A stretch of DNA of 64,000 bases from Lysobacterales bacterium. GTDB taxonomy: Bacteria; Pseudomonadota; Gammaproteobacteria; Xanthomonadales; SZUA-36. Numbering within the stretch: position 1 is the first letter of the stretch; the number at the start of each line of letters is the position of its first letter. The notes below the pieces were generated by a model, which saw only the letters and a list, made by a program, of their open reading frames with translations, was not told where the DNA came from and did no database searches. Position numbers and translations under genes: made by a program. The stretch is from assembly GCA_028289465.1 (NCBI GenBank), contig JANQPM010000076.1:1-64000 (forward strand), given 5' to 3'. Positions 4,864 to 45,030 of the stretch are shown here, one piece after another.

Positions 4864-6159
4864 ATGATCGCGGCAGCACAGGCTTCATCCCATAACTACG
4901 CACTGGCCGAAGTGCGCCTGTGGGACCGGCTGATCGGTGCTGTGGTCGAAGACCGCAACGGGCAGATTACGTTTGAGTACGATACGGCGTTCCGCCGCAG
5001 CGGCTTGGAAATCTCCCCGCTGCACCTGCCGCTGTCGCAAACCGGCCCGATCCAGTTCCCGGCACTCAGGCGCCTGGAGGCATTTGAAGGGCTGCCCGGC
5101 GTGCTCGCCGACGCGCTGCCGGACCGCTTCGGCAACGCCATTATTCAATCCTATTTCAGCCGCCGCGGCGAACCGGAGCGAGCCTTAAGCCCGGTACAGA
5201 AACTGCTCTATATCGGCAACCGCGCGATGGGTGCGCTGGAGTTCCGGCCGGCCCTGCATCTGCGCGAACGCCGGGCGGAACAGGAGTCGCTGGAAATCAG
5301 AAGCCTGGTCGAACAGGCACGCCGTCTGATCGAAGGCGATACCGACCAGGCAGTACGGGAAATCATGCGGGTCGGCGGTTCCGCCGGCGGCGCACGGCCC
5401 AAGGCCGTCATCCTGTGGAACCGTGAAGCCCGGCGGGTGCGCTCGGCTTTCGCCAAACCCGCAGCCGGCGATCAGCACTGGCTGATCAAATTCGACGGCG
5501 TCGGCGAGCTCGACCAGCCGGACCCGGCGCCGCAGCCGTATAACCGTATCGAATACGTATACTCCAGGATGGCCCGCCACTGCGGTATTCAAATGCCGGA
5601 AACCTTTTTACTGGAGGAGCGGCGACTCGGGCATTTCATGGCCCGCCGTTTCGACCGCGTCGATGGCCGGCGCCTGCATATGCACACCCTGGGCGGCATG
5701 ACGCATACCGACTTCAATCATCCCGGCCTGTTCAGCTACGAAGGCTTTTTCCGCGCGATGCAGCAATTGCGGCTGGACTTTCCGGACCGGCTGGAAGGCT
5801 TTCGCCGCGCATTGTTCAACCTGATGACCGTAAACCAGGACGACCATGTGAAAAACCTGTCCTTTCTAATGGACCCGCACGGGCGCTGGCGGCTGGCGCC
5901 GGCATACGACCTGACCTATGCTGCCGGCGCAAACTTTACCCGCCGTCATCAAATGTCGTTCAACGGCAAACAGGACGGCTTTGACTGGCGGGACGTACAG
6001 CAAGTCGCCGACAACTATGGTTTTAAACGCCATGCACCGGCAATTGCCGATGCTATTCGTGACTCACTGAACCGCTGGCCGGACTGGGCCGCGGCGGCCG
6101 GCGTGCCGCAGGACCGTATCGGTTTTATCGCCGCCCGTTTCCGCTGGCTGAAGCCCTAG
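4864..6159 (+). CDS. hipA: HipA-like Ser/Thr kinase toxin
   Basis: Predicted 431-residue protein of the HipA family, kinases that in characterised systems phosphorylate an aminoacyl-tRNA synthetase and induce dormancy. Visible features: N-terminal HipA_N region (residues 15-125), the glycine-rich loop GGSAGGARPK (171-180) with Ser173 in the place of the autophosphorylated serine region, NRIEYVYSRMARHCGI (about 227), the catalytic NQDDHVKN (324-331; Asp326 likely base) and the metal Asp in AYDLTYA (about 349). Length is close to E. coli HipA. It sits directly after hipB, as expected for a type II pair. All core residues look intact. The target is unknown. Confidence 0.93.
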   Translation: MIAAAQASSHNYALAEVRLWDRLIGAVVEDRNGQITFEYDTAFRRSGLEISPLHLPLSQTGPIQFPALRRLEAFEGLPGVLADALPDRFGNAIIQSYFSRRGEPERALSPVQKLLYIGNRAMGALEFRPALHLRERRAEQESLEIRSLVEQARRLIEGDTDQAVREIMRVGGSAGGARPKAVILWNREARRVRSAFAKPAAGDQHWLIKFDGVGELDQPDPAPQPYNRIEYVYSRMARHCGIQMPETFLLEERRLGHFMARRFDRVDGRRLHMHTLGGMTHTDFNHPGLFSYEGFFRAMQQLRLDFPDRLEGFRRALFNLMTVNQDDHVKNLSFLMDPHGRWRLAPAYDLTYAAGANFTRRHQMSFNGKQDGFDWRDVQQVADNYGFKRHAPAIADAIRDSLNRWPDWAAAAGVPQDRIGFIAARFRWLKP

Positions 6160-6233: not shown

Positions 6234-6384
6234 GGAGCCGCAGGCGACCTGCCGGAGCGGGCGCCGTTAAGCACATCTGACCCCACCCGCACGCGCTTAA
6301 CGGTTTCGTCAGAAGGCTTCTTCGCTATCGCGAAACCGCCGTCTGACTCCATCTGCGCTACGAGAAAGGGGGGTGCGAGATGCC
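6234..6384 (+). repeat. Composite dispersed repeat lacking the 90-bp core
   Basis: Begins with the part A motif GGAGCCGCAGGCGACC, continues to a hairpin (GTCAGAAGGCTTCTTCGC pairing imperfectly with GCGAAACCGCCGTCTGAC, 6308-6347) and ends GGTGCGAGATGCC. The complete copies at 29252 and 44563 have the same order but with a 90-bp palindromic unit between the two parts. It ends 41 bases before the Rieske oxygenase gene. Confidence 0.7.
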
Positions 6385-6425
6385 TTTTAATGCCAACAGT
6401 AAAAGATGGCGCTACACTCGAAGCC

Positions 6426-7526
6426 ATGACTTCACCGACCGACCTGGTTCGCCAGTACCGCGCGGCGCTGCCACTGGAAAAAGCCAGCACGCCGCCCAGC
6501 GCCTGGTATACCGATCCGCATATCGCGGCACTGGAACGCCAGGCGGTATTCGCCGGCCACTGGCAGCCGGTCGCACGCATGGATCAACTGCGCCGGCCGG
6601 GAGATTTCGTCACCGCCGACATCGCCGGCGAGCCGATAGTGGTAATTCGAGACGGGGGGATTCACGCATTTTACAACGTCTGCCGTCACCACGGCGCTCA
6701 AATCGCCGGCGGCAGCGGCTGCCTGGACCGCTTTCGCTGCCCGTACCACGGCTGGACTTATGCTCGCGACGGCCGGCTGATCGGCACACCGGCATTCGGC
6801 GACGCGGCGGATTTCGACCGCGACGAGCACGGTCTGCTGCCGGTTCGCAGCGCGCGCTGGCAAAACTGGGTCTGGATCAACCTGAACCCCAGTGCCGTCG
6901 ATCTGCCGCAGGCCTTCGGCCGCTTCCATACCGCGCTGGATACTCTGAATCTGCAGGAGCTGCAATTTTTCGAGCAGCGCGAATATGAGCTGGACTGCAA
7001 CTGGAAGGTCTTTATCGACAACTACCTGGATGGTGGCTACCACGTACCCCATATCCACAAAGGTCTGGGCAGCGTGCTGGACAACCGCGCCTATACGATC
7101 GAAGTGACCGACAGCCATTGCCTGCAATCCTGCCCGATCAGCGGCGCGGACAACGCCACCGGCGCTGTGCGCCAGGGCGAGATGGCCCACTATTACTGGC
7201 AGTACCCCAATATCATCGTCAACCACTACCAAGGCGTGATGGATACCAACTGGGTATTTCCGCTGGCTCCCGACCGCTGCCGGGTGATCTGCGATTTCTG
7301 GTTTTCGAACATCGGCGAGGACGCCCGTCCGTACAATACCCAAAGCATAGACATCGCCGATGAAATCCAGCGCGAAGACATGGCCATTTGCGCGGCCGTG
7401 CAGCGAGGCCTGAATTCCCGCGCCTACGACACCGGCCGCCTGTCACCGGCCCGCGAGGCCGGTGAATACCTGTTCCACCAACTGCTGTACCGCGACCTGC
7501 TGGCCGGCCTCTCCGCCTTCGGCTAG
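6426..7526 (+). CDS. Rieske non-heme iron oxygenase, choline-monooxygenase-like
   Basis: Predicted 366-residue alpha subunit of a Rieske-type ring-hydroxylating or N-demethylating oxygenase. The [2Fe-2S] ligands are visible as C86-R-H88 and C105-P-Y-H108. The mononuclear iron site shows DNYLDGGYHVPHIHK, with His206 and His211. This second motif is very like plant choline monooxygenase and bacterial relatives acting on quaternary amines, so a betaine or quaternary amine substrate is a reasonable guess. No reductase or ferredoxin gene lies nearby, so the electron donor must be encoded elsewhere. The ATG at 6426 has a weak ribosome site. A partial copy of its last 27 codons lies at 15122. Confidence 0.9.
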   Translation: MTSPTDLVRQYRAALPLEKASTPPSAWYTDPHIAALERQAVFAGHWQPVARMDQLRRPGDFVTADIAGEPIVVIRDGGIHAFYNVCRHHGAQIAGGSGCLDRFRCPYHGWTYARDGRLIGTPAFGDAADFDRDEHGLLPVRSARWQNWVWINLNPSAVDLPQAFGRFHTALDTLNLQELQFFEQREYELDCNWKVFIDNYLDGGYHVPHIHKGLGSVLDNRAYTIEVTDSHCLQSCPISGADNATGAVRQGEMAHYYWQYPNIIVNHYQGVMDTNWVFPLAPDRCRVICDFWFSNIGEDARPYNTQSIDIADEIQREDMAICAAVQRGLNSRAYDTGRLSPAREAGEYLFHQLLYRDLLAGLSAFG

Positions 7527-7754: not shown

Positions 7755-8159
7755 ATGAGTGTAGATATTCCATCCAATTTTGATCTGGATGTAGACGCCA
7801 ATCTAAATGGCAACCTGAACACTAATGTCTCGGGTCTGCCAACAAATTTTGGTCTTTCTATCGATAGACTACCGAAAATCGAACTCGGCATTGACCCGGT
7901 TGAACTTAAACCAGTTGATCTCTCTTTGCGTTTAAAAGAATTCCCACCCCTCAGAATGCACTTACCGGCGAATTTTAAAATGGGCTTTTCCTTGCTCGGT
8001 GCGGAACTATTTGCTATCCGGCTCTGCGGCCAGGCGCAGGCGATTGCCGAGCCGTACACACCTAACCCTTGTGAGCAGCAGATGGTTCGGCATGATAGCG
8101 CTGGACTGGCAGCGGTGGCTTCCCGAAATCTGGCGGTCGTTTCGGAGCCTAAGGAATAA
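7755..8159 (+). CDS. Unrecognised protein with P-x-N-F repeats (operon gene 1)
   Basis: Predicted 134-residue protein, not recognised. The motif P-x-N-F recurs three times (IPSNFDLDVD near residue 5, LPTNFGLSID near 28, LPANFKMGFS near 73). Between copies two and three the sequence alternates polar and hydrophobic residues, as in amphipathic beta-strands. A short hydrophobic stretch (GFSLLGAELFAIRLCGQAQA) is followed by EPYTPNPCE. There is no signal peptide or catalytic motif. GAAGGGG lies seven bases before the ATG. It opens a tightly spaced five-gene operon ending in a methyltransferase; a lipid-surface or structural role is only inference. Confidence 0.75.
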   Translation: MSVDIPSNFDLDVDANLNGNLNTNVSGLPTNFGLSIDRLPKIELGIDPVELKPVDLSLRLKEFPPLRMHLPANFKMGFSLLGAELFAIRLCGQAQAIAEPYTPNPCEQQMVRHDSAGLAAVASRNLAVVSEPKE

Positions 8160-8171
8160 CGCTTTATCACT

Positions 8172-8900
8172 ATGGCCGGAAAGCAAAAAGCCGTATCTGC
8201 ACTGAAGTTCATCGGAACGCCCAACCGCCTTTACTTCAATGGTGAACTGAAACCCGATCTTACTGGGCTGCAAATGCTGGAACCGACCGGGAAACTGAAA
8301 ACCCTGGCAAACAATCAGCCGTTGCAGGCGCAGTTCCGCGGCAGCGAGGGGCAGGACTCATCTCAAGCCCGCTTGCGCTTGAACCGAACTACACCACCGG
8401 GGAACTACAAGGCCAGGCTTCGTTCGGGAAGGAAGAGTTATCCGGTCAATCTTACTGTGGAACCTTATTTGCGCCTCAAGTTCAGGCGCGCGGAAACTCT
8501 TTTTTCCGGAATTCCGGGGCGGGTAGCCCGGGCTCATATACAGGTATTTAACAAAGGCAATGTGGCATTTGAATTCCCGCATAATAACGTCTGTGGAATC
8601 TATGTAGAGAAAGGCGTTGAAACGGCATTTGCCAGCATGTACCGGCAATCCACCGAAGACGTTGACACGCTGCTGAAGCATTTTCTGTCGAAGCTGCGAG
8701 ACGGACATGGAGGATTATTGAAGATTCGCACCTTGGGTGGTTCTGTACTGGTGGAGCCCGGCCACACAGAGAACATCCGCCTGAGTGCCCAGCTGCCTTC
8801 CAAACTTAAGGCGGGGCACTATTATCACGGAGTCTGGCGGCTCGAAAATGTACACCAGCGAATCAAAGTGTTTGCGGAGAACTCGAAAGGTGGGAAATGA
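8172..8900 (+). CDS. Unrecognised beta-rich protein (operon gene 2)
   Basis: Predicted 242-residue cytoplasmic protein, not recognised. It appears to hold two beta-sandwich-like halves. The first contains FIGTPNRLYFNGELKP and ends at GNYKARLRSGRKSYPVNLTV (about 79-98). The second contains RAHIQVFNKGNVAFEF and closes with VLVEPGHTENIRLSAQLPSK and LKAGHYYHGVWRL (about 195-227). The order 'exposed strand, LxPG turn, P-x-x-x-x-G-x-Y-x-G' is that of Ig-like or NEW3-type sandwiches and recurs in genes 3 and 4 and in the 198-residue protein at 13077. It ends in a four-base overlap with gene 3. No signal peptide is seen. Confidence 0.75.
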   Translation: MAGKQKAVSALKFIGTPNRLYFNGELKPDLTGLQMLEPTGKLKTLANNQPLQAQFRGSEGQDSSQARLRLNRTTPPGNYKARLRSGRKSYPVNLTVEPYLRLKFRRAETLFSGIPGRVARAHIQVFNKGNVAFEFPHNNVCGIYVEKGVETAFASMYRQSTEDVDTLLKHFLSKLRDGHGGLLKIRTLGGSVLVEPGHTENIRLSAQLPSKLKAGHYYHGVWRLENVHQRIKVFAENSKGGK

Positions 8901-9556
8901 CGATGAAACAGAAATCTAGCAAAGCGTCAGACAACATGGATAAAATCGTTTCTGCACTGGGTGAAGTGGTAGACGCACAAATGGCCTTCGGGCAAAAGCT
9001 GCTGGAGTCTTTCACAGCGGGCTCTGGCGGCGTTGTCAAAGATATGTTAAATGCCGCTATCGGCCCTAAGACCGATAGTTGCTGCGACATCCCCGACCCT
9101 TGCTGGATGCCGCTGTCATTGGGTGAAATCCACTGCCACCTATGTCCGGGGGCCAGCGGCCAGGTCTGCCTGGTTATTACCAATCTAGATTTCAGAAAGC
9201 GCGACTTCACGATCCACGCAGCCGGCAAAGACGCCGCCCAGGTTTCTTTTTCCACTTCGCATATCAGCCTCGGGCCGAAAGAACGGCTGGGCGTGACAGC
9301 AACATTTAAAGCACCCACCGACAACCGGACATCGCACTGTTTTGGCCAATACGAAGCATTGATCTGGGTTCAGGGCTGCCGTAACCACTTCCTCAGGTGG
9401 ACCGTGGATACGCATAGCAAATCGGGAAGCTGCTGCCACGAGATTTTCGTCAATGACCAACCGGACTACGAGCTCCACTGGTATGATCACTTCTACTTCG
9501 ACCGCCCTTGCTTCGGGCCAAAGACGATCCATTTCAATAAAGACAAGAAAGGTTGA
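8897..9556 (+). CDS. Unrecognised Cys-rich Ig-like protein (operon gene 3)
   Basis: Predicted 219-residue protein, not recognised. Residues 14-45 form an amphipathic helix (MDKIVSALGEVVDAQMAFGQ). A Cys-rich segment (CCDIPDPCW) leads into a beta-sandwich with VCLVITNLDFRKRDFTIHAAG, then SLGPKERLGVTATFKAP and GQYEALIWVQGC. The end is His/Tyr/Asp-rich (ELHWYDHFYFDRPC) and could bind a metal. About eleven cysteines without a signal peptide suggest metal or Fe-S binding rather than disulfides; this is inference. The start overlaps the preceding stop as ATGA, so translation is coupled. Confidence 0.75.
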   Translation: MTMKQKSSKASDNMDKIVSALGEVVDAQMAFGQKLLESFTAGSGGVVKDMLNAAIGPKTDSCCDIPDPCWMPLSLGEIHCHLCPGASGQVCLVITNLDFRKRDFTIHAAGKDAAQVSFSTSHISLGPKERLGVTATFKAPTDNRTSHCFGQYEALIWVQGCRNHFLRWTVDTHSKSGSCCHEIFVNDQPDYELHWYDHFYFDRPCFGPKTIHFNKDKKG

Positions 9557-9561
9557 TACAC

Positions 9562-10047
9562 ATGATTGAACGGCTTACTGAAGTTGTTAAGCACTCGGTG
9601 GATCTCAACCTGCGTTATTATTCGACGCTTTTTGATCTATCAAAAAACTATGTCCAGTCAATGGGTCAGTTAATGCGCTCCGGTTTATCAGATGGGCCGA
9701 CCGCATCAACTCCACCGGCATCGGCAAACGTACCAACTCCGCCGCTGCTGCTCGCGGGAAAGCTGAACGAAGTGGCTAAAGGCGCTTTCTCGGTAACCAA
9801 CCATCTGAAGCAACCAGTCACGATGAACGTGGCAACATCGGGTGAGGTAACAGAAGAACAGATAACGTTGAACCCCCGATCGAGGACTCTTGAGCCCGGT
9901 GAAATCTGCGTGGTGCAGGCCTCGGTGAAAATCAACAAGCAATTTGAAGCCGGTCGTTCCTACAGTGGCGCATTTTCCATACCAGGTCTATCAGCCGGCA
10001 ACATTCCCTTTGTGGTTCAGCGCCTGCCCCGAGCGGCAAGCACCTGA
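9562..10047 (+). CDS. Unrecognised phasin-like/Ig-like protein (operon gene 4)
   Basis: Predicted 161-residue protein, not recognised. The N-terminal 45 residues are an amphipathic helix (MIERLTEVVKHSVDLNLRYY, then STLFDLSKNYVQSMGQLM) resembling the surface helices of phasins. A short Pro/Ala/Ser linker leads to a C-terminal sandwich domain with SVTNHLKQPVTMNVATSGEV, TLEPGEICVVQASV and GRSYSGAFSIPG. The helix-plus-sandwich plan is shared with the protein at 13077. ATG 9562 is preferred over an in-frame TTG at 9553, having AAAGG nine bases upstream. Confidence 0.75.
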   Translation: MIERLTEVVKHSVDLNLRYYSTLFDLSKNYVQSMGQLMRSGLSDGPTASTPPASANVPTPPLLLAGKLNEVAKGAFSVTNHLKQPVTMNVATSGEVTEEQITLNPRSRTLEPGEICVVQASVKINKQFEAGRSYSGAFSIPGLSAGNIPFVVQRLPRAAST

Positions 10048-10071
10048 CCAGCCGACACCAACCGACTCGAA

Positions 10072-10914
10072 ATGTCATATCAGGCCTCACCATTTGCACA
10101 GGGCGTGCTGGTGCAGATGATGCATGCATACTCCGCCTATGTCTTCAGCCCCTATCGAATAGCCAAAGAGCTCGGCCTTGTGACACCGAACATCAGCGGC
10201 CAGCCGCCGAAGCCGAATCCACGCAAGGGACTTGGCAAATACTTCTCCCAGCACTACAAAAGACCGCTGATGATGACCCAGGCAAGCCAGCACGATCATC
10301 TGGTGGAGGAATTCGACCGCATGGGGGAAATATACGACGCCTATGTTCGTCCGTTTTCAACACCGCTAATGGATGAAGCCGTCCACGCGCTGGAGCCTTA
10401 TATAGACCGCCGCTTCCGGATAATGGATGCCGGCTGCGGCTGTGGACGGGAGGTCTGCCGGATGTCTCGGCTGGTACCGGAAGGAGAGGTCGTCGGTATA
10501 GATCTGGCGGCCGGCATGGTCAATGCCGCTCAACGAGCCGCCCATGCCAAGGGGTTTGACAACACTGCATTCGTACAGTCGGATGTGGGCCAGCTGCCGA
10601 CAGAATTCAATGGCAAATTCGACATGGTATACAGTTCCCTTGCCCACCATCACTATCCAAATCCGGGTGCCGCAACCCAGGCGATTTTCAATTGTCTGAG
10701 GCCGGGCGGTATCTATGCCGTGATAGATGCCGGACCGGAATGGTTTGTTAAATCCAGCTCTCCCATCGCCGCCTGGTCCGATCCTGGCTGGATCGGCTTT
10801 CATACCCCAAAGCAATTCACTGATCTGTTTTCAAATGCTGGCTTTGAGCAGTGTGGCTGGATAGGTTTGGTGCCCGGCTTTGGTATTGCTATAGCGCAGA
10901 AGCCGGACAGCTAG
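10072..10914 (+). CDS. Class I SAM-dependent methyltransferase (operon gene 5)
   Basis: Predicted 280-residue methyltransferase. SAM-binding motif I is IMDAGCGCGREVCR (about residues 117-130), motif II ends VVGIDLAAGM, and the post-motif KFDMVYSSLAHHHYPNPGAA matches the Rossmann methyltransferase fold. An unusual N-terminal extension of about 75 residues (SPFAQGVLVQMMHAYSAYVF) precedes the catalytic domain and may contact a membrane or substrate. The substrate is unknown. Being last in an operon facing a prenyl synthase and CrtC-like operon suggests methylation of an isoprenoid product; this is inference only. Confidence 0.85.
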   Translation: MSYQASPFAQGVLVQMMHAYSAYVFSPYRIAKELGLVTPNISGQPPKPNPRKGLGKYFSQHYKRPLMMTQASQHDHLVEEFDRMGEIYDAYVRPFSTPLMDEAVHALEPYIDRRFRIMDAGCGCGREVCRMSRLVPEGEVVGIDLAAGMVNAAQRAAHAKGFDNTAFVQSDVGQLPTEFNGKFDMVYSSLAHHHYPNPGAATQAIFNCLRPGGIYAVIDAGPEWFVKSSSPIAAWSDPGWIGFHTPKQFTDLFSNAGFEQCGWIGLVPGFGIAIAQKPDS

Positions 10915-10918
10915 ATTC

Positions 10919-10933
10919 CCGTTGAACAAACGG
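10919..10933. terminator. Short hairpin between convergent operons
   Basis: CCGTT-GAACA-AACGG forms a small perfect stem in the 29-base gap between the methyltransferase and SCP2-like genes, which converge here. There is no T-run, so intrinsic termination is doubtful. Confidence 0.3.
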
Positions 10934-10943
10934 CATGCGGTCT

Positions 10944-11501
10944 TTACTTCAGCAGATCAAGCCGCTTTAACAGTTTATACTCCCGAGCGGCGGTTCGTTC
11001 CCGAGGCCGTCGCTGCCGCAGATAAGTTTGGACGCCGTTAAACGGCGGCAGACAAGGGTCGCGACGATAGTCGTTGCCTAAATCCTGCAATGCGGCGGTG
11101 CGGGCGGAAGCGTCCATCAGAATTTCAATCGCCTGACCCATGATGACAATATCTTCTGCAAGTCCGATCATATCCAGGGCGCCCAGGTGAATGGCTTCCG
11201 ACAGATCCTGATAGCCGTTCATTAGCGCCAATACGGTTTGTCTGGTCGTCACGCCTCTGGCGACAGGGTCGTCCGACGTAAAATCCGCATTTCGCCCAGT
11301 GGCAAGAAATTCGCCTGCCCGAAACTGAATCAGTATAGCTTCGCGATCAACCACAATGCAGGCACATCGGTCTCCCACCAACCGCCGCAGCGCCCGATAG
11401 GCGTCCGTATCCGCCTCCCGCAAACGGGAGATAAGCTGAACCAGATAGTCTTGAAGACTTCGACAGGGGGGCAGACTTTTGGATGCGGCGTTATTCGACA
11501 T
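10944..11501 (-). CDS. SCP2-like sterol-carrier domain protein
   Basis: Predicted 185-residue cytoplasmic protein. Residues about 45-130 carry an SCP2-like pattern: CACIVVDREAILIQFRAGEF forms the first strands, then a TTRQTVLALMNGYQDLSEAI segment and IHLGALDMIGLAEDIVIMGQ, typical of bacterial SCP2 domains that bind lipids in a hydrophobic tunnel. The C-terminus is basic (RQRRPRERTAAREYKLLKRL). The start at 11501 overlaps the end of the CrtC-like gene by 11 bases, so the two are coupled. A carrier for a hydrophobic isoprenoid fits the operon; the family call rests on pattern only. Confidence 0.7.
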   Translation of the reverse strand: MSNNAASKSLPPCRSLQDYLVQLISRLREADTDAYRALRRLVGDRCACIVVDREAILIQFRAGEFLATGRNADFTSDDPVARGVTTRQTVLALMNGYQDLSEAIHLGALDMIGLAEDIVIMGQAIEILMDASARTAALQDLGNDYRRDPCLPPFNGVQTYLRQRRPRERTAAREYKLLKRLDLLK

Positions 11502-12492
11502 ATTCAAAAACACCCAGTCCATGGTGATCAAGCTCCACCTGCTCCAGCTTGCCGCGCAAGGTGAATTCGCCGCATAACTCATGAATAAAGCCATATCCCT
11601 GGCGCATGGGTTCGGCCAGTATGAGCTGAATGGCGGATTCCATTGAAAACTCCAGTCGAAACCAGTCGAACCCGCTTTTGACTTCGATGGAAACCCGCCT
11701 GTGCAGCAGTGGGCTGGACCGGTCTTTATGCAGGCTTGCCATAACGCCGGGAATGCGTCGATCAAGTCTGGCTACTTCACGTTCACGCTCAACAGTAATG
11801 TGATCGCCGACGAACTGCCTGGCCCTGCCGCCGGCAATGACATAGAGATGCGGCAGGCCGAAAATACTGTGATCACTATTGGTCACGACGGAAAAGACCA
11901 CGGTAGGTCCACTGTCTCCGGCAGTGAACACTCCCCACTCCCACCCACAGTCGTCACCCCAAAACCAACGTCCCCAGTTATGGTCGTGGTATACGGTAGT
12001 CGAATCCAGAGAACTGTCTTGCCGGAAACGTCGTAGGCGGCCCTTCGCTTTCAGAACGGGAACCGCGGACCAGGCAATCCAACCTGAGCCAAATGGCATC
12101 GGAGTCTGCATGCGGAAAGGTGACGACAACGGCTTGGCTTCCAGTCGAACGGTCAGTTCATCTACCGGCATATCAACCGAAGCGCTGAGTACCTCTTGAC
12201 TATGCGCAATGCCAATGGCGGTTTGCGGCAGCATGATGCCGTACTGGTCCAGCGCGATGTCTGAGAAGCGGTTCTCGTGAACATTACCCAGCCAACCGTT
12301 TTCAGGATCAAACACCAAGCCCGTTGCGACCGCCTGTGAATTCTCCCCACCCCATTGGCCGTGCAGGGACGTATTAATCAGGCCGATGCGTCGGTTTTCG
12401 TGATCAAAAAAATTGGCGTGATACCATTCTTTGTATGCATTCCCCAGTGGATCGGATAAGGCCGGCGGCTGCAGCGGATCGAAAACACTCAC
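11491..12492 (-). CDS. CrtC/AttH-like lipocalin-type hydratase homologue
   Basis: Predicted 333-residue protein resembling the CrtC (hydroxyneurosporene synthase)/AttH superfamily of double-lipocalin proteins. The clearest signature is VYHDHNWGRWFWGDDCGWEW near residues 167-186, matching the family His-Asp-His-Asn-Trp-Gly motif. Other aromatic blocks (SLHGQWGGENSQ, FGSGWIAWS) fit the fold. CrtC adds water to the terminal C1,2 bond of acyclic carotenoids; whether this protein has that activity is unknown. It lies two genes after a polyprenyl synthase, but no phytoene synthase or desaturase is present in the window. The ATG overlaps the preceding stop by four bases. Confidence 0.75.
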   Translation of the reverse strand: MSVFDPLQPPALSDPLGNAYKEWYHANFFDHENRRIGLINTSLHGQWGGENSQAVATGLVFDPENGWLGNVHENRFSDIALDQYGIMLPQTAIGIAHSQEVLSASVDMPVDELTVRLEAKPLSSPFRMQTPMPFGSGWIAWSAVPVLKAKGRLRRFRQDSSLDSTTVYHDHNWGRWFWGDDCGWEWGVFTAGDSGPTVVFSVVTNSDHSIFGLPHLYVIAGGRARQFVGDHITVEREREVARLDRRIPGVMASLHKDRSSPLLHRRVSIEVKSGFDWFRLEFSMESAIQLILAEPMRQGYGFIHELCGEFTLRGKLEQVELDHHGLGVFEYVE

Positions 12493-13064
12493 CGCAGTAT
12501 CGCGTCGCCGTCACGAATACCCGAATGCTGTTCGACGGTATTCGTATCTTCCTGGTGGCCTTCCGCCAGCACTTCGATGGAACGTGTCAGCTCTCTTGAA
12601 TAAACCAGTAAACCGAGCAGGCAGTCGAGAAAATTTGCGTCTTCCCGTTTCGGCTGATGGCCTGCATAACGCGATTCCGGCGGTAACGGCACGGCTGACA
12701 TCGCTTCTTGCAGGTCTTCCGCCAAAAGCAAAGCCAAATCGTTTCTAATATGGTCCAGTACCGGACTGGGGGGCAGGCCGCGAGCCCAGTCAGCGATCCG
12801 CAGAGATTCCCAGATCAACTCACCATTCTTAGTGATGCCGGCTTTGTCAAAAGCGCGTAGAAACCTTCGCCCTTCAACCGTACCGCGAAACTCGCGGCCC
12901 GCTTCACTGAGCCCGGCGATAATGGAACCGATCACGCTGACGCCAGAGGTATAGTGCAGTGTCACCAGGCGCATTGCCAGCGACGATAGTAACGTCGCGG
13001 TAGTTCGCCCGGCTTCTTCCGGCAAATCGACCAAACGGATCACAGTGGGAGAACTTTGCACCAT
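12489..13064 (-). CDS. Unrecognised helical protein
   Basis: Predicted 191-residue, mostly helical cytoplasmic protein, not recognised. A moderately hydrophobic N-terminal half (TATLLSSLAMRLVTLHYTSG, VSVIGSIIAGLSEAGREF) could pack on a membrane or lipid surface, but no segment is clearly transmembrane. The C-terminal half is acidic. No catalytic motif is visible. AGAGGATAACGG precedes the ATG. It sits 12 bases after the histone-tailed protein gene and overlaps the CrtC-like gene by four bases, so it belongs firmly to this operon. Confidence 0.7.
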   Translation of the reverse strand: MVQSSPTVIRLVDLPEEAGRTTATLLSSLAMRLVTLHYTSGVSVIGSIIAGLSEAGREFRGTVEGRRFLRAFDKAGITKNGELIWESLRIADWARGLPPSPVLDHIRNDLALLLAEDLQEAMSAVPLPPESRYAGHQPKREDANFLDCLLGLLVYSRELTRSIEVLAEGHQEDTNTVEQHSGIRDGDAILR

Positions 13065-13076
13065 ATCCGTTATCCT

Positions 13077-13673
13077 CTAGCGATTGGAGCGCCGGCGGCC
13101 GGCACGCTTCTTGGTAAGTTTTTTTGCCGTCTTCTTCCCGGCCCTTTTTCTGGCCACTTTCTTCTTGGCCTTTTTCGCCGTATTGGCCGAACGTTTAGCG
13201 GCGGTGCGAATAGCCACATGAACAGGAATTGCACCGTCTTTATATCCGTATAGCAGACAGGCGCCTTGATAGTTTCCCGTCGAAATATCTTTCGGCACAA
13301 CCAGCTCAATGGTAAAAAGACAGCGCCCGTCGGCCGGCAGCAGTTTGAAAGAAGGTGAGATTTTAGCTTCGGCAAACCAGGTGGTTCCGGAAGCATCGAC
13401 CAGTGGACTGAGCATTGGCGTAATCAGACAGTGAACCCGTTGCCGGTTACTGGCCTCGAACTGCAACACCGCGCGCTCCCCGGGGCAGGCGGAAACACTG
13501 ACCGCGTGCTCGGTTTTCGGCACTACCAGAGTACCCGGCACAACCGGCCCCACCATACCCTGTAGCTGACGCAGGTAGTTGAGGGTTTCTTCAGCTAGTT
13601 TTTGCTGAAAATTACTTTGCAGGCGCAGCAACTCTTCGAATGGGCCTGAAGCGCCGGCTGGCTTATCCGTCAT
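13077..13673 (-). CDS. Helix + Ig-like + histone-H1-like tail protein
   Basis: Predicted 198-residue protein, not recognised as a family. Three parts are visible: an N-terminal amphipathic helix (FEELLRLQSNFQQKLAEETL, about residues 12-45); a beta-sandwich with AVSVSACPGERAVLQFEASN, LPADGRCLFTIELVVP and TGNYQGACLLYG; and a 40-residue tail of Lys, Arg and Ala (KKAKKKVARKRAGKKTAKKL) like histone H1 or AlgP. The plan parallels PhaF, a phasin whose histone-like tail ties storage granules to the nucleoid, although the central domain differs. It lies 22 bases after the prenyl synthase gene. DNA or polyphosphate binding is inferred from charge only. Confidence 0.75.
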   Translation of the reverse strand: MTDKPAGASGPFEELLRLQSNFQQKLAEETLNYLRQLQGMVGPVVPGTLVVPKTEHAVSVSACPGERAVLQFEASNRQRVHCLITPMLSPLVDASGTTWFAEAKISPSFKLLPADGRCLFTIELVVPKDISTGNYQGACLLYGYKDGAIPVHVAIRTAAKRSANTAKKAKKKVARKRAGKKTAKKLTKKRAGRRRSNR

Positions 13674-13695
13674 GTATCCCCCTGATTTAACTTAC

Positions 13696-14754
13696 TTATT
13701 TCAGTCGCTCTACCATATAGTTTAGCACCTCGCGGATAAACTCGCGACCGGCGTTGTGCTGCATAAATGTCGCCAGTTTCGGTTCCAGTGCAATCGCCCG
13801 GTCGGCGAATTTCCGGGCAATTTTTTGACCGTATTCAATCGATCCGTGGTTCAAAATCTCCCGGTGCAGCCATTTGATATCCTTGGCGGTTTTCTCCCGG
13901 CGGGGAAACCGCAGGATATTCAATGCGCGATCCCGCTTGGCGACGGATGCGCTACGAAGGAAATGCAACAGCATGATCGTGCGTTTGCCTTCATAGAGGT
14001 CACCGCTGATCTCCTTCCCATACAGAACCTCATCCGCAGTCAGGTTCAAAAGATCGTCTTGAATCTGAAACGCAACGCCGGTGGCAAAACCTAGTTCCAG
14101 GGTGTCTTGCAGATAGTCATCCAGACTACCGCTATGCTTCACCGCACTGCCGCAGATAATGCCGATCCGCATCGGTGCGATAGTGGTATACCAGCAAGTC
14201 TTCTTGTAGACCATGTTGATATAGTCCTGGTCACCCAGGTCAAAACAGCCGGTGCGTATCCAATCCAGATCCATGGCCTGACCCTCAACAGACTCGCGGC
14301 TCATACGCTCGAACTCCCGCAGAATCTGCAAGGCTTTTCGAACACCGAGTTTCTCCACGTTCTGCAGCAGCAGCGAAATGGCCAGTACATTGGTTGCATC
14401 GCCGACATTGATGGCTATCGGCACTCCCAGTTGCCGGAACAACGTCTGTTCTCCACGCCGGAAATCCGACACATCCTGAACATCGTCATGATTTATCGCC
14501 GCGTTGTGAAACAACTCCAGGGCAGCTGCTGAGGTGATGGCCTGGTAGGTCTTACCGCCCATGGCTGTGCAAGTGGATATCAGGATAGCGGGCCGCAGGC
14601 TCTTGCCCTCACGAAACGGATATACCGCCAGATGATCATACAACGGTCCATAGCCGGTTTCTTTGCAGGCAGCGAATAGCCGGCGGAATTCTGCTTCAAC
14701 AAGAAGCCGCGACTCTTCCAGCACCTGAGATACGAACGATTGACTTCGAGACAC
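13696..14754 (-). CDS. Polyprenyl (geranylgeranyl-type) diphosphate synthase
   Basis: Predicted 352-residue trans-isoprenyl diphosphate synthase. The first Asp-rich motif is D90-D91-V-Q-D94, with the following RRGEQT loop. The second motif is Q232-D233-D234-L-L-N237, with Asn in the last position as in eukaryote-like GGPP synthases instead of the common Asp. EGKSLRPAI near residue 49 is the pyrophosphate-binding K/R segment. It condenses IPP with allylic diphosphates; chain length cannot be fixed here, though a bulky Phe/His just before the first motif (LFHNAAINHDD) favours short products. It is the first gene of the leftward operon and probably supplies its lipid precursor. Confidence 0.9.
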   Translation of the reverse strand: MSRSQSFVSQVLEESRLLVEAEFRRLFAACKETGYGPLYDHLAVYPFREGKSLRPAILISTCTAMGGKTYQAITSAAALELFHNAAINHDDVQDVSDFRRGEQTLFRQLGVPIAINVGDATNVLAISLLLQNVEKLGVRKALQILREFERMSRESVEGQAMDLDWIRTGCFDLGDQDYINMVYKKTCWYTTIAPMRIGIICGSAVKHSGSLDDYLQDTLELGFATGVAFQIQDDLLNLTADEVLYGKEISGDLYEGKRTIMLLHFLRSASVAKRDRALNILRFPRREKTAKDIKWLHREILNHGSIEYGQKIARKFADRAIALEPKLATFMQHNAGREFIREVLNYMVERLK

Positions 14755-14920: not shown

Positions 14921-15130
14921 TAGGCTCCTGGTGCCTGTTTCGGCAACCCGCCCAGTGCCTGCGGAAAACAGATATGCTCGCCATGCATATCGTTCGAGCC
15001 CTGCGGCTCCAGACCGTTTTGATGCGCGTGCTTAGCGTACGTATCGGCATCGTCGACCACCAGTTGCAGCATGGCATAGGCATGCATGCCCGGGCCTTCC
15101 AGCCACGCGTCGATCCAGCTGTCGCCGGCC
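14921..15130 (-). pseudogene. 5'-truncated copy of the VOC gene at 20168
   Basis: On the - strand this reads as an open frame (DSWIDAWLEGPGMHAYAMLQ, then LVVDDADTYAKHAHQNGLEP) ending in a TAA at 14921. It is closely similar in DNA and protein to the last 70 codons of the intact VOC gene at 20168-20530. The first 50 codons are missing; the match breaks at CCGGCC, where sequence from the Rieske gene begins. No start codon or ribosome site is available, so it is a dead fragment. Confidence 0.8.
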
Positions 15131-15205
15131 CGCGAGGCCGGTGAGTACCTGTTCCACCAACTGCTATACCGCGACCTGCTGGCCGGCCTCTCCGCTTCTC
15201 AGTAA
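15122..15205 (+). pseudogene. 3' fragment of the Rieske oxygenase gene
   Basis: Reads SPAREAGEYLFHQLLYRDLL-AGLSASQ then stop on the + strand. It matches the last 27 codons of the oxygenase at 6426-7526 almost base for base, differing only in the final three codons and a few silent sites. It is joined head-on to the VOC fragment at a short shared CCGGCC. It has no start and cannot make a functional oxygenase. Confidence 0.8.
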
Positions 15206-15606: not shown

Positions 15607-18267
15607 ATGTATCACTTCCTTTCAAGAGGCTCTAATAAGCGATCGAAACCCATCGGAAAGCTGGCGCTGGGCATGGTCGTCCTGACCGCGCTCGGCCACC
15701 TGACCCCGGGCATAGCCAAAGACGATGAAACCGCCGTTCCGGCCGGCGCGAAAACCGCGCGAAGTGCGGCGGCCGCCAACGTCACGATATCGCTGGACAA
15801 CGACGTCCATATTCGCGACCAACTGGCAGATTATTTCAGTCAGCTCAACGCCAACCATGTGCCGACGAAGATCCTGCTGGAAAAAGGCGCGGTACTGTTC
15901 GGCGATTTGATCAAGGCCAATGACGGACAGCCCGGCAGTCCGCCGGCCGGCCCGACCCTGAAAGGCAGCGCGCCGATTGCGATCGGCGGCAGCACTTCTG
16001 CCGGCGCGCTGAATTACGGGTCTTTTTTCGAGGCGCTGAACGACCTGGAACATGCCACACTGTTCGACACAAGCCTGTGGCCCGGCAAGGACGCCATCAA
16101 GGCGGATTCCCAGTATCTTCAGGAACAGTCCGGAATTGTCCCGCTGGTGCTCGCGACCATCGAATACAACTCGATTCCGGAAGACGAACTGGGTCCGGAT
16201 AATCAAAGCGGCGCATATTATCAGCCCGAGAGCCCCGGCCCGGTCGGCGACACTCGCTTGTTCGTCGGCAGTGTGCTCGGCACACCGGTCGTCTATGGAC
16301 CGAACCCGACCTTCATCTTTACCGAAAAGCTGTTTGTCAACAACACCGGCCGGAAAATCGCCGATCTGGTGCTGACCGTCCGCGGCAAAAAGCAAACCAC
16401 GACCTATAAGATTCAGCCCGGCCTGCCGTTTACGGTCAACCTGGCGAACCCGTCGATAAGGGTAGAGAACAGCTATACCCTGAACTTTACGATGGATGGC
16501 AAGAAATACGAAACGGACAGCGTATTCACCTACACCGGCGATCATTCAACCACCGGCGCTCCAGCAGCGCCCGGCGGCAGAACTACGGTTAGCAATGCCT
16601 GCTATGACATGCCCGCGGTTACGGCCAACCTGGCCTATCAGGGCGTTAAAAACACACTGAATATGCGAATCTACCCGGCCTACGGCACCGTATCCGGCAG
16701 CGTAGTCAACGATGGCGGCTGCTTTAACGGCTCCAATCCGCAGCTCAAGCAGGTGATGGTCATTGTCGATGGATTCGATGCGTTCAACAACCGCACCCAC
16801 GACTCGATCTGGGAGGATTTCGGCCAATCGATGCGACAGTTCCGGCAGGCGGGTTTCGACTTGGTGGTGCCGGACTACCGGCAGGGCAACGACTATATTC
16901 AACGCAACGGCCTGGCGCTCAGAAAACTGATCACCGATGTGATTCCGACCTGGCTGGCGGACGACGGCGATCCGCGGCTGGTTGTGATGTCGGGCAGTAT
17001 GGGCGGGCAGGTCAGCAACTATGCGCTGAGCACGGCCGAGGCAGCCGGCGAAACCCATAACGTCGCGCTGTTCTTCGCCATCGACAGCCCGTTCAAAGGC
17101 GCGAATATTCCGATTGGCATGCAGGGGCTGGTGGAATTTCTGGCACCGCTGGCTGAGGAAGGCGCGGCGTTTCTGCAAGCGCTGAACAGCCCGGCTGCCA
17201 GCCAGCAATTGCTGGTCAACCGCTATGACGATCCGAATATCGCGTTTCCCGGCGTGTTCGCGACCCTGCCCGAGATCTGGTACCAGCCGAAGCCGGAGTT
17301 CCATGACTACTATGGCGAGCTGCATCAACTCGGCCTGCCGCAGCAAAGCCGCAATATCGGTATTGCCAGCGGCAGCGGCACGGGTACAAATGTGTTCGGT
17401 TACGTGCCGGAAGCGAACCCCAAGGTGACCATGAACCGCGTTAACTGGAGCACCAGCCTGTTCGGTATTGTGGTCGGCCGCTTTATTCTGGATGCCAGAA
17501 CCGACCACGGCGGACAGTTCTTCTACGGGCGAATCAAAAACCCGATTCCGTTCATCAACGGCGAACCAAGCTCCCGAACTCTACGGCTGTCCCTGGACCA
17601 CGGCGACCGGTGGGATACCGCACCCGGCGGCTACCGAACCTCGCCGCAGGAAGTGAGCGATGCTTATAACAGCAGCGGTTCGTCCAAGGGGACCATGAGC
17701 AGTCCGCTGGACAAGCACTCATTCGTACCGTTGTTCAGCGCGCTCTATCTCGATGTCGACGACCCGTACTACATTCCGGCCAACGATCCGAACCTGTTCG
17801 ACCGCACCGCATTCGATGCGATCTGGTACGAGAAATGCAACGTCGAACACGTAACCGCGACCAGCGGCTCCAGCGAGCTGATTTTCGCCGAGCTCAGCGC
17901 TTTTCTGACCGGCAACCCGCCGCCGCAACCGGAACTGCCGCTGGAGCACTGCCACACCCCGGAAGACAACTACCCGGTACCGGTATGCATCGTTAATTTC
18001 GATCCGCTCGGTATCAGCAATCCGCGCTATGTCGAATTCGACGGCAGCGACTCCCACGTTCCAAGAGGCGTGATCACTTCGTACCGCTGGGACTACGACG
18101 ATGCCAACGGCGGCCCCGACGGCGGCGGCCCCTACAACTCTCATGTCTACACATTGCCACCGGGTTCCCCGGGCTATCTGGCCAAGCCGACGCTGACCGT
18201 AACCGACAGCAACGGCAACTCCTGGAGCACGCTTTGCGACCAGGTACCTGTGGGCATTGATTATTGA
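15607..18267 (+). CDS. Secreted alpha/beta-hydrolase (lipase-like) with PKD domain
   Basis: Predicted 886-residue exported protein. Residues 1-38 form a long signal peptide (KLALGMVVLTALGHLTPGIA). The middle holds an alpha/beta-hydrolase: MVIVDGFDAFNNRTHD begins the fold near residue 388, and VVMSGSMGGQVSNY near 459-472 is the nucleophile elbow with Ser464. HSFVPLFSALYLDVDDPYY near 700 may precede the catalytic His region. Residues about 790-880 form a PKD-like Ig domain (RYVEFDGSDSHVPRGVITSY, then YRWDYDD). It is probably an extracellular or surface esterase or lipase; the substrate is unknown. It is followed by a hairpin and then the TetR and transporter genes. Confidence 0.8.
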   Translation: MYHFLSRGSNKRSKPIGKLALGMVVLTALGHLTPGIAKDDETAVPAGAKTARSAAAANVTISLDNDVHIRDQLADYFSQLNANHVPTKILLEKGAVLFGDLIKANDGQPGSPPAGPTLKGSAPIAIGGSTSAGALNYGSFFEALNDLEHATLFDTSLWPGKDAIKADSQYLQEQSGIVPLVLATIEYNSIPEDELGPDNQSGAYYQPESPGPVGDTRLFVGSVLGTPVVYGPNPTFIFTEKLFVNNTGRKIADLVLTVRGKKQTTTYKIQPGLPFTVNLANPSIRVENSYTLNFTMDGKKYETDSVFTYTGDHSTTGAPAAPGGRTTVSNACYDMPAVTANLAYQGVKNTLNMRIYPAYGTVSGSVVNDGGCFNGSNPQLKQVMVIVDGFDAFNNRTHDSIWEDFGQSMRQFRQAGFDLVVPDYRQGNDYIQRNGLALRKLITDVIPTWLADDGDPRLVVMSGSMGGQVSNYALSTAEAAGETHNVALFFAIDSPFKGANIPIGMQGLVEFLAPLAEEGAAFLQALNSPAASQQLLVNRYDDPNIAFPGVFATLPEIWYQPKPEFHDYYGELHQLGLPQQSRNIGIASGSGTGTNVFGYVPEANPKVTMNRVNWSTSLFGIVVGRFILDARTDHGGQFFYGRIKNPIPFINGEPSSRTLRLSLDHGDRWDTAPGGYRTSPQEVSDAYNSSGSSKGTMSSPLDKHSFVPLFSALYLDVDDPYYIPANDPNLFDRTAFDAIWYEKCNVEHVTATSGSSELIFAELSAFLTGNPPPQPELPLEHCHTPEDNYPVPVCIVNFDPLGISNPRYVEFDGSDSHVPRGVITSYRWDYDDANGGPDGGGPYNSHVYTLPPGSPGYLAKPTLTVTDSNGNSWSTLCDQVPVGIDY

Positions 18268-29251: not shown

Positions 29252-29603
29252 GGGAGCCACAGGCGACCGGCCGAAGCGGGCACCGCGAAGCACGGCTTCT
29301 TGCACGTTGCGCAAACCGCCCTTTGAGAATCCCAATATCTGCAGGAGCGCCTTTAGGCGCGATCAGCGTTTATGGTTATCCGAAGCCTTCATCCTGCGGC
29401 AGGTATTCGCGCCTAAAGGCGCTCCTACACAGGGGCGTACTGGCTGCGTCAGAAGGCTTCTTCGCTTCAGCGAAACCCCAGTGTAGGTGACTTAGTCGGC
29501 AGTTTTGCCAGCGGCAAAGAAGCCGGCCAACAGGCACCGTAAAGCATGCCTGACTCCACCTGCACGCGCTTAACGGCTACGAAAGACGCGGGCGCGAGAC
29601 TCC
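29252..29603 (+). repeat. Composite dispersed repeat, full copy 1
   Basis: Order of parts: A (29252-29336, GGAGCCACAGGCGACC.. to GAGAATCCCAAT), the 90-bp palindromic unit (29340-29429), C hairpin (29448-29483, GTCAGAAGGCTTCTTCGC..), and a tail ending GGGCGCGAGACTCC. The copy at 44563-44923 has the same order. This fills most of the 499-base gap before the Popeye-like gene; no gene is seen in that gap. Confidence 0.75.
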
Positions 29604-44562: not shown

Positions 44563-44923
44563 GGAGCCGCAGGCGACCCGCCGGAGCGGGCGCCGTGAAG
44601 CATGGCTTCTTGCGCGTTGCGCAAACTGCCCTCTGAGAATCCCAATGGCTGTAGGAGCGCCTTTAGGCGCGAATACCTACCGCATGATAAAGGCTTCGGA
44701 TAACGATAAATGCTGATCGCGCCTAAAAGCGCTCCTGCACATGAGCTTACTGGCTGCGCCTGCACGCGCTAAACGGTTCCGTCAGAAGGCTTCTTCGCTA
44801 TAGCGAAACCGCCGTCTGACTCCACCTGCACGCGTTTAACGGCTGCGCCAGAAGGCTTCTTCACTGTCGTGAAACCGCCATCCGGCTTCGCCTACGCTAC
44901 GAAAGATGCGGGTGCGAGACTCC
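44563..44923 (+). repeat. Composite dispersed repeat, full copy 2
   Basis: Part A (44563-44648), the 90-bp palindromic unit in reverse orientation (44650-44739), then two tandem C hairpins (44781-44820 and 44848-44887, GTCAGAAGGCTTCTTCGC.. and CCAGAAGGCTTCTTCACT..), and the tail GGTGCGAGACTCC. It fills the 504-base gap between the DUF1501 and dehydrogenase genes; no gene is seen there. Confidence 0.75.
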
Positions 44924-45030
44924 TTCTTATTCGGGCAGGGTACTTGGACCAGCGGCGCAGCGGTTGGCGGAAGCGTGTAATTCTCCTACTATTTCAGCAT
45001 CAGCACTTGCCGCGCCAAAGGAATCCGCAA

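Follow-up and report, generated by a model that had tools for sequence, protein, structure and literature searches.

In the carotenoid 1,2-hydratase CrtC (PF07143), alanine at His239, Trp241, Tyr266 or Asp268 abolishes activity, with Asp268 being the proposed proton donor (PMC4717167), and two further residues, Trp283 and Trp285, stabilize the cation (PMC12402844). Here we analyze a cassette of ten genes, denoted A through J, which is located in a 64,000-nucleotide stretch of DNA from a Lysobacterales bacterium (assembly GCA_028289465.1, contig JANQPM010000076.1, positions 1-64,000 of the forward strand; hereinafter, the window) and encodes a member of the superfamily that includes CrtC, AttH, Svf1, the tocopherol cyclases (PF14249) and the fungal lipocalin Diels-Alderases. 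This protein, G, shares the fold family of these proteins by profile comparison and keeps the Tyr-x-Asp ... Trp-x-Trp residues required in CrtC, but has neither a match to PF07143 nor a visible equivalent of His239 and is encoded in a non-carotenoid cluster. The cassette recurs in other bacteria and appears to be mobile. Our tentative reading, held at something short of even confidence, is that this transferable cassette combines a small isoprenoid pathway with a cytoplasmic scaffold or coat of its own.

Several other known systems resemble parts of the cassette. Clusters of the 2-methylisoborneol and sodorifen type combine a prenyl synthase with a prenyl-diphosphate methyltransferase; the cassette likewise pairs a prenyl synthase with an S-adenosylmethionine (SAM) methyltransferase but lacks a terpene cyclase, and its methyltransferase falls outside the curated prenyl methyltransferase families. 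Plant plastoglobules contain the tocopherol cyclase VTE1 and a methyltransferase, and carry a fibrillin coat. The likeness here would be one of operation only, in that the cassette encodes a putative enzyme of the tocopherol cyclase superfamily, a methyltransferase and presumed coat proteins, but no fibrillin or aromatic prenyltransferase; its coat proteins are unrelated to those of plastoglobules and its inclusion is a prediction. Finally, protein I shares with the phasins and the nucleoid-tethering PhaF of polyhydroxyalkanoate (PHA) granules an amphipathic N-terminal helix, a Lys-rich tail and weak matches to the phasin models (TIGR01841/PF09361). However, these matches are below the cut-offs, the sandwich domain related to ASH and PapD that is predicted between the helix and the tail of I is absent from phasins, and the cassette lacks a PHA synthase. 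Among these systems, the cassette takes its place as a variant of isoprenoid gene clusters, and an organelle, if it proved to be one, would be categorically new. No published description of the cassette was found in the literature, with subscription journals mostly not covered, and it seems to be undescribed.

Composition, conservation and mobility of the cassette

The genes of the cassette, with their coordinates in the window, strands and products, are as follows.

A: 7755-8159, + strand, 134 aa, repetitive beta-strand protein
B: 8172-8900, + strand, 242 aa, basic protein
C: 8897-9556, + strand, 219 aa, helix and Cys/His-rich region
D: 9562-10047, + strand, 161 aa, putative helix-plus-sandwich protein
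E: 10072-10914, + strand, 280 aa, methyltransferase
F: 10944-11501, - strand, 185 aa, no assigned fold
G: 11491-12492, - strand, 333 aa, putative CrtC/tocopherol cyclase superfamily enzyme
H: 12489-13064, - strand, 191 aa, no assigned fold
I: 13077-13673, - strand, 198 aa, putative helix-plus-sandwich protein with Lys-rich tail
J: 13696-14754, - strand, 352 aa, polyprenyl synthase

All ten open reading frames listed in an earlier note on this DNA are present, with the overlaps reported there (4 bases for B/C, 4 for H/G and 11 for G/F); the remaining gaps within the operons are 5-24 bases, and the convergent genes E and F are separated by 29. Only E and J, among the ten proteins, match Pfam or NCBIfam models above the cut-offs. 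Scans of the window for consensus promoters returned matches at chance level.

A search for G in 84,980 species genomes, which used exact peptide patterns of this one protein and thus sets a lower bound on the distribution, yielded eight loci, seven in roseobacters (Roseobacter and Ruegeria) and one in a Bacteroidetes metagenome-assembled genome (MAG), where the locus sits on an 835-kb contig. By BLASTP, each of the seven roseobacter loci contains all ten genes in a single same-strand operon, A-B-C-D-E-J-I-H-G-F, with gaps from -11 to +46; the H/G (-4) and G/F (-11) overlaps are identical in the window and in the roseobacters, where the stop codon of E also overlaps the start of J by 4 bases. 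Accordingly, the two tail-to-tail operons described in the earlier note exist in the window, where the J-F half is inverted, but not in the roseobacters. That the ten genes keep one relative order across seven roseobacters is far beyond chance and bears out the expectation of the earlier note that they would recur elsewhere as a unit. The Bacteroidetes MAG encodes J-I-H-G-F only; the highest score against the E profile there is 45.7 bits, compared to 611.8 for the Ruegeria ortholog, and an ortholog of E is missing. Therefore, J-I-H-G-F is the core of the cassette, and A-E is an add-on module. The region upstream of the Bacteroidetes core (L010:2143-5385, minus strand) encodes a 1080-aa fusion of a ferritin-like domain, a flavin adenine dinucleotide (FAD) amine oxidase/desaturase and a Rieske domain.

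Comparison of two roseobacter loci (L003 and L005) gave ratios of nonsynonymous to synonymous substitution rates (dN/dS) of 0.03-0.21 for the eight genes for which these could be computed, C and G being saturated; these eight genes are under purifying selection. The cassette is rare. Searches of 100 relatives, 368 genomes of the class and 398 of the phylum (overlapping sets) turned up full-length G in no further genome, and the roseobacter's order yielded it in 2 of 246 genomes; H was detected in 1 of 385 genomes of the class of the roseobacter and in 1 of 297 genomes of the Bacteroidetes phylum, in each case the carrier itself.

At the nucleotide level, L003 shares with the six other roseobacter loci a single conserved block that extends from about 70 bp before A to the inside of F. 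No conserved DNA was detected in the roseobacter flanks beyond the cassette, and the flanking genes are unshared except for generic families at unrelated places. In the window, the cassette lies between two direct repeats.

Left direct repeat: 7440-7516, + strand, 3' part of an intact Rieske oxygenase gene (6390-7526)
Right direct repeat: 15119-15195, + strand, displaced fragment of the 3' end of the Rieske gene

The repeats are 77 bp long, 96% identical and 7679 bp apart, a pattern that is expected 0 times by chance; the left one stops ten bases before the end of the Rieske gene. Such direct gene-end repeats at both borders are expected for an integrative element inserted at the 3' end of a gene. 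The GC content is about 0.53-0.56 inside the cassette versus 0.57-0.64 in most of the flanks. Taken together, the restriction of conserved DNA to the cassette, the unrelated flanks, the repeats and the lower GC content indicate that the cassette is, judging by its sequence, a mobile, self-contained, horizontally transferred unit. None of the ten proteins has a Pfam match to an integrase, and no flanking repeats were found in the other loci. A phage origin and a plasmid location were considered and rejected, given that scans of viral contigs returned no matches and no plasmid matches were obtained. Seven of the ten proteins belong to families that lack a confident Pfam match; these proteins travel together between unrelated bacteria and thus most likely share one job, and the unknowns did not fall into families with clear unrelated roles.

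In the search for a shared promoter, the roseobacters proved to have some 40 bases in common before gene A. A block present in all seven, CTTCGCAGAATCTCNAATTTCTGTTAACC (L003:4517-4590 and equivalents), also precedes A and contains CAGAA...TTCTG, possibly an operator.

Predicted isoprenoid enzymes

The isoprenoid enzyme core that the earlier note had perceived is borne out by the families of J, G and E, assignments that are well supported. J is confirmed as a predicted trans-prenyl diphosphate synthase of the geranylgeranyl diphosphate (GGPP) type, as previously proposed: it matches PF00348 (E=9e-51, 172.9 bits versus a cut-off of 27), its best match in the PDB is the GGPP synthase 1wmw (4.8e-63), and it is 53-56% identical across three lineages. 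The first DDxxD motif is DDVQD, DDIED or DDVED in the ortholog alignment and the second is DDLLN. The residues at positions -4 and -5 of the first motif are mostly small, which suggests a product of C20 or longer, and J misses the cut-off of every curated equivalog. In the genome of the window J is the third prenyl synthase, alongside two others, and in other carriers it is the third or fourth. A dedicated aromatic prenyltransferase of the UbiA family was also sought; none is encoded at the cassette, and the genomes tested each encode three or four at other locations.

The assignment of E as a methyltransferase held up as well (Pfam Methyltransf_31, 3e-21). The protein is 63-65% identical to its roseobacter orthologs, possesses an N-terminal region of its own of about 100 aa, and matches no curated methyltransferase family in NCBIfam, prenyl methyltransferases included. 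In the Bacteroidetes locus, a radical-SAM gene is divergent from J and might replace E.

The description of G as CrtC-like holds at the superfamily level but not as membership in Pfam CrtC. Comparison of the G alignment with an alignment of CrtC-like proteins using hhalign gave a probability of 98.8% (E=9e-17), and the bridging CrtC-like proteins match the Tocopherol_cycl, DUF2804, Svf1, CrtC and DA_N models of Pfam. None of the nine G family members matches PF07143 itself, the only hits being to DUF2804 and Tocopherol_cycl, below the cut-off. Tyr168-x-Asp170 and Trp184-x-Trp186 are invariant in the nine G sequences; the tryptophans follow the aspartate by 14 and 16 residues, compared to 15 and 17 in CrtC. 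Trp141 of G may be equivalent to Trp241 of CrtC, but an invariant Ile139 occupies the position expected for the histidine; because the spacing is off by two, the alignment around His239-x-Trp241 is uncertain. We therefore treat G as a putative enzyme of the CrtC/tocopherol cyclase lipocalin superfamily in which Tyr168, Asp170, Trp184 and Trp186 are presumed to be catalytic.

CrtC-like proteins also occur in a separate pairing. In L011, a CrtC-like protein is fused to an FAD amine oxidase/desaturase-like protein in a 941-aa frame, and in L019 a CrtC-like gene adjoins an FAD amine oxidase/desaturase-like gene; a nucleotide cyclase-like gene is found alongside in both.

Helix-plus-sandwich proteins and other components

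No transmembrane segment or signal peptide was detected by hydropathy in any of the ten proteins, which are therefore probably cytoplasmic; the surface proteins envisaged in the earlier note are not supported. The domain layout is clearest for I. The AlphaFold2 (AF2) model of this protein consists of an amphipathic helix (residues 11-36), a sandwich (approximately 55-155, pLDDT of about 90) and a disordered Lys-rich tail. The tail, previously likened to that of histones, is confirmed and is present in all nine orthologs; the phasin-like helix and the beta-sandwich are additions to the earlier description of I. Foldseek searches with the sandwich retrieved domains of CEP192, HYDIN, MSP and PapD (best E=2.8e-6, for CEP192), with modest TM-scores (0.3-0.6), and the domain is modelled as an immunoglobulin (Ig)-like fold of the ASH/PapD/MSP type. 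Judging by profile comparison (hhalign 95.4%, E=2e-8), D is a homolog of I, with a predicted amphipathic helix and an ASH/PapD-type sandwich. Protein C combines an amphipathic N-terminal helix with a Cys/His-rich Ig-like region in which nine cysteines are invariant in an alignment of eight sequences; its orthologs are about 46% identical, and 6 of 8 members weakly match the Ig-like FixG_C model (best 0.007). We also considered C as a homolog of I or D, which was not supported. The helices are amphipathic beyond shuffled sequences: the observed value is reached in a fraction of 0.012 of the shuffles for I, 0.000 for D and 0.002 for C, the moment of the D helix exceeding all 2000 shuffles.

Of the beta-sandwich set proposed in the earlier note, I (modelled) and D (by homology) are retained, B and C only hint at such a fold, and A does not fit, being a protein of beta-strand repeats. 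The repeats of A are about 10 residues long, of the E-L-P-x-I-x-L-x-V type, and are more numerous in the roseobacter copies than in the window; the protein is 42-48% identical to its orthologs in the seven roseobacters and has no Pfam or NCBIfam match. B is basic, with possible Ig-like strands and a weak, short profile match to I, and has orthologs in the seven roseobacters (E from 5e-18 to 4e-14). F has orthologs in all eight loci (25-34% identity); its proposed role as an SCP2-like carrier is unconfirmed, with one of nine members matching SCP2_2 at E=0.02 and no SCP2 protein in the PDB matched by profile. H, a predicted all-helical protein, is 50-55% identical in roseobacters and 41% in Bacteroidetes, and its AF2 model is helical but poor (pLDDT 41).

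A putative isoprenoid assembly and alternative explanations

The interpretation given in the earlier note, in which the locus makes a modified isoprenoid and handles it with dedicated proteins, is thus supported in part. In the scheme that we infer for the order of substrates, the product, the inclusion and the nucleoid tether, J would elongate farnesyl diphosphate to a prenyl diphosphate of C20 or longer, and the substrate of the methyltransferase E would be the prenyl chain or its product. Through Asp170, G would protonate the terminal prenyl double bond, with Trp184 and Trp186 stabilizing the cation; the latter might react with water, giving hydration, or with an internal nucleophile, giving cyclization, outcomes that are indistinguishable at this level. 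The hydrophobic product, an isoprenoid of the C20 class, would gather in a cytoplasmic assembly, the surface of which D, I and C could bind via their amphipathic helices, displaying the Ig-like domains, and the Lys-rich tail of I may tie the assembly to the nucleoid, in the manner of PhaF on PHA granules. The remaining proteins, A, B, F and H, would be dedicated parts of the cassette. An inclusion is possible, and the amphipathic N-terminal helices and weak phasin matches fit with it. The most specific form of this proposal, a mobile unit that builds a plastoglobule-like isoprenoid inclusion with a phasin-like coat of ASH-domain proteins, tethered to the nucleoid and housing enzymes for a novel methylated, hydrated or cyclized isoprenoid, appears unlikely as a whole.

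Several observations weigh against the combination of an isoprenoid pathway with its own scaffold or coat. The product, the substrate and the inclusion are predictions. An equivalent of CrtC His239 is not evident in G; the phasin matches are below the curated cut-offs (16.9 bits versus 30.2) and limited to one of nine I members; no fold is assigned to F or H; and E could methylate something other than an isoprenoid. Furthermore, the cassette encodes neither a prenyltransferase nor a terpene cyclase, so that nothing in it accounts for what becomes of the diphosphate.

The principal alternative is a metabolon, that is, an isoprenoid pathway in which the helix-plus-sandwich proteins scaffold soluble enzymes, the product moving on to the membrane, without any inclusion. 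The enzyme evidence fits this explanation equally well, the ASH, MSP and PapD domains are generic protein-protein interaction modules, and amphipathic helices are just as able to form coiled coils; the conservation of the Lys-rich tail in all nine I orthologs, however, suits tethering to nucleic acid better than enzyme scaffolding, and we regard the metabolon as a realistic, if rather doubtful, possibility. A protein nanocompartment or filament in which an Ig-like shell encloses the prenyl synthase, by analogy with family 2 encapsulins and their polyprenyl transferases, would account for the several small repeated-domain proteins and for the score of J against the model for polyprenyl transferases that are encapsulin cargo (2e-42, below the cut-off of that model). 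Nevertheless, J scores higher against ordinary GGPP synthases, and Pfam and NCBIfam searches revealed no HK97-type encapsulin among the ten proteins, so that such a compartment is improbable.

The profile and motif resemblance of G to CrtC also raises the question of a cluster for carotenoid tailoring by a hydratase and a methyltransferase. In two roseobacter carriers (genomes G839 and G1078), one contig encodes both a strong match to SQS_PSY and, beside it, a prenyl synthase. However, the cassette itself lacks a phytoene synthase and a desaturase, in agreement with the earlier note, which had not regarded it as an ordinary carotenoid cluster; G fails to match Pfam CrtC; and the Ruegeria carrier has a single, weak SQS_PSY match (E=2.6e-21). 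In the genome of the window, the strong SQS_PSY match adjoins a squalene-hopene cyclase, so that hopanoids rather than carotenoids are likely to be the other isoprenoid of this organism. The weak match in Ruegeria and the squalene/hopanoid context in the window genome led us to reject a carotenoid cluster, and carotenoid tailoring is very improbable. That the cassette borrows isoprenoid enzymes for a role in stress or in defense against phages is hardly credible: the distribution is patchy and mobile, with ParDE beside the cassette in L003 and HipA upstream in the window, but the only PADLOC match is to a generic methyltransferase domain (mad2), the cassette contains no nuclease, sensor or pore-like part, and the neighboring genes differ between genomes.

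Should an isoprenoid pathway with its own coat be confirmed, bacteria would gain an isoprenoid inclusion that can be transferred, together with a novel set of inclusion proteins, and G would extend the group of protonating lipocalin enzymes, which hydrate or cyclize unactivated prenyl chains. The whole operon is present in cultured roseobacters, with Roseobacter cerasinus and Ruegeria sp. 2205SS24-7 among the carriers, so that gene deletion, lipid analysis and microscopy are within direct reach.

The neighborhood of the cassette has some further features. The ParDE toxin-antitoxin pair adjoins the cassette at 3833-4365 of L003. In the window, the HipA-type kinase gene (4864-6159) is directly upstream of the Rieske gene, and a gene for an 886-aa PKD-domain protein (15607-18267) directly follows the right repeat. 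A dispersed intergenic repeat is located at 6234-6386, with pieces at 61-100, 1464-1494, 29447-29576 and 44563-44925 (80-95% identity).

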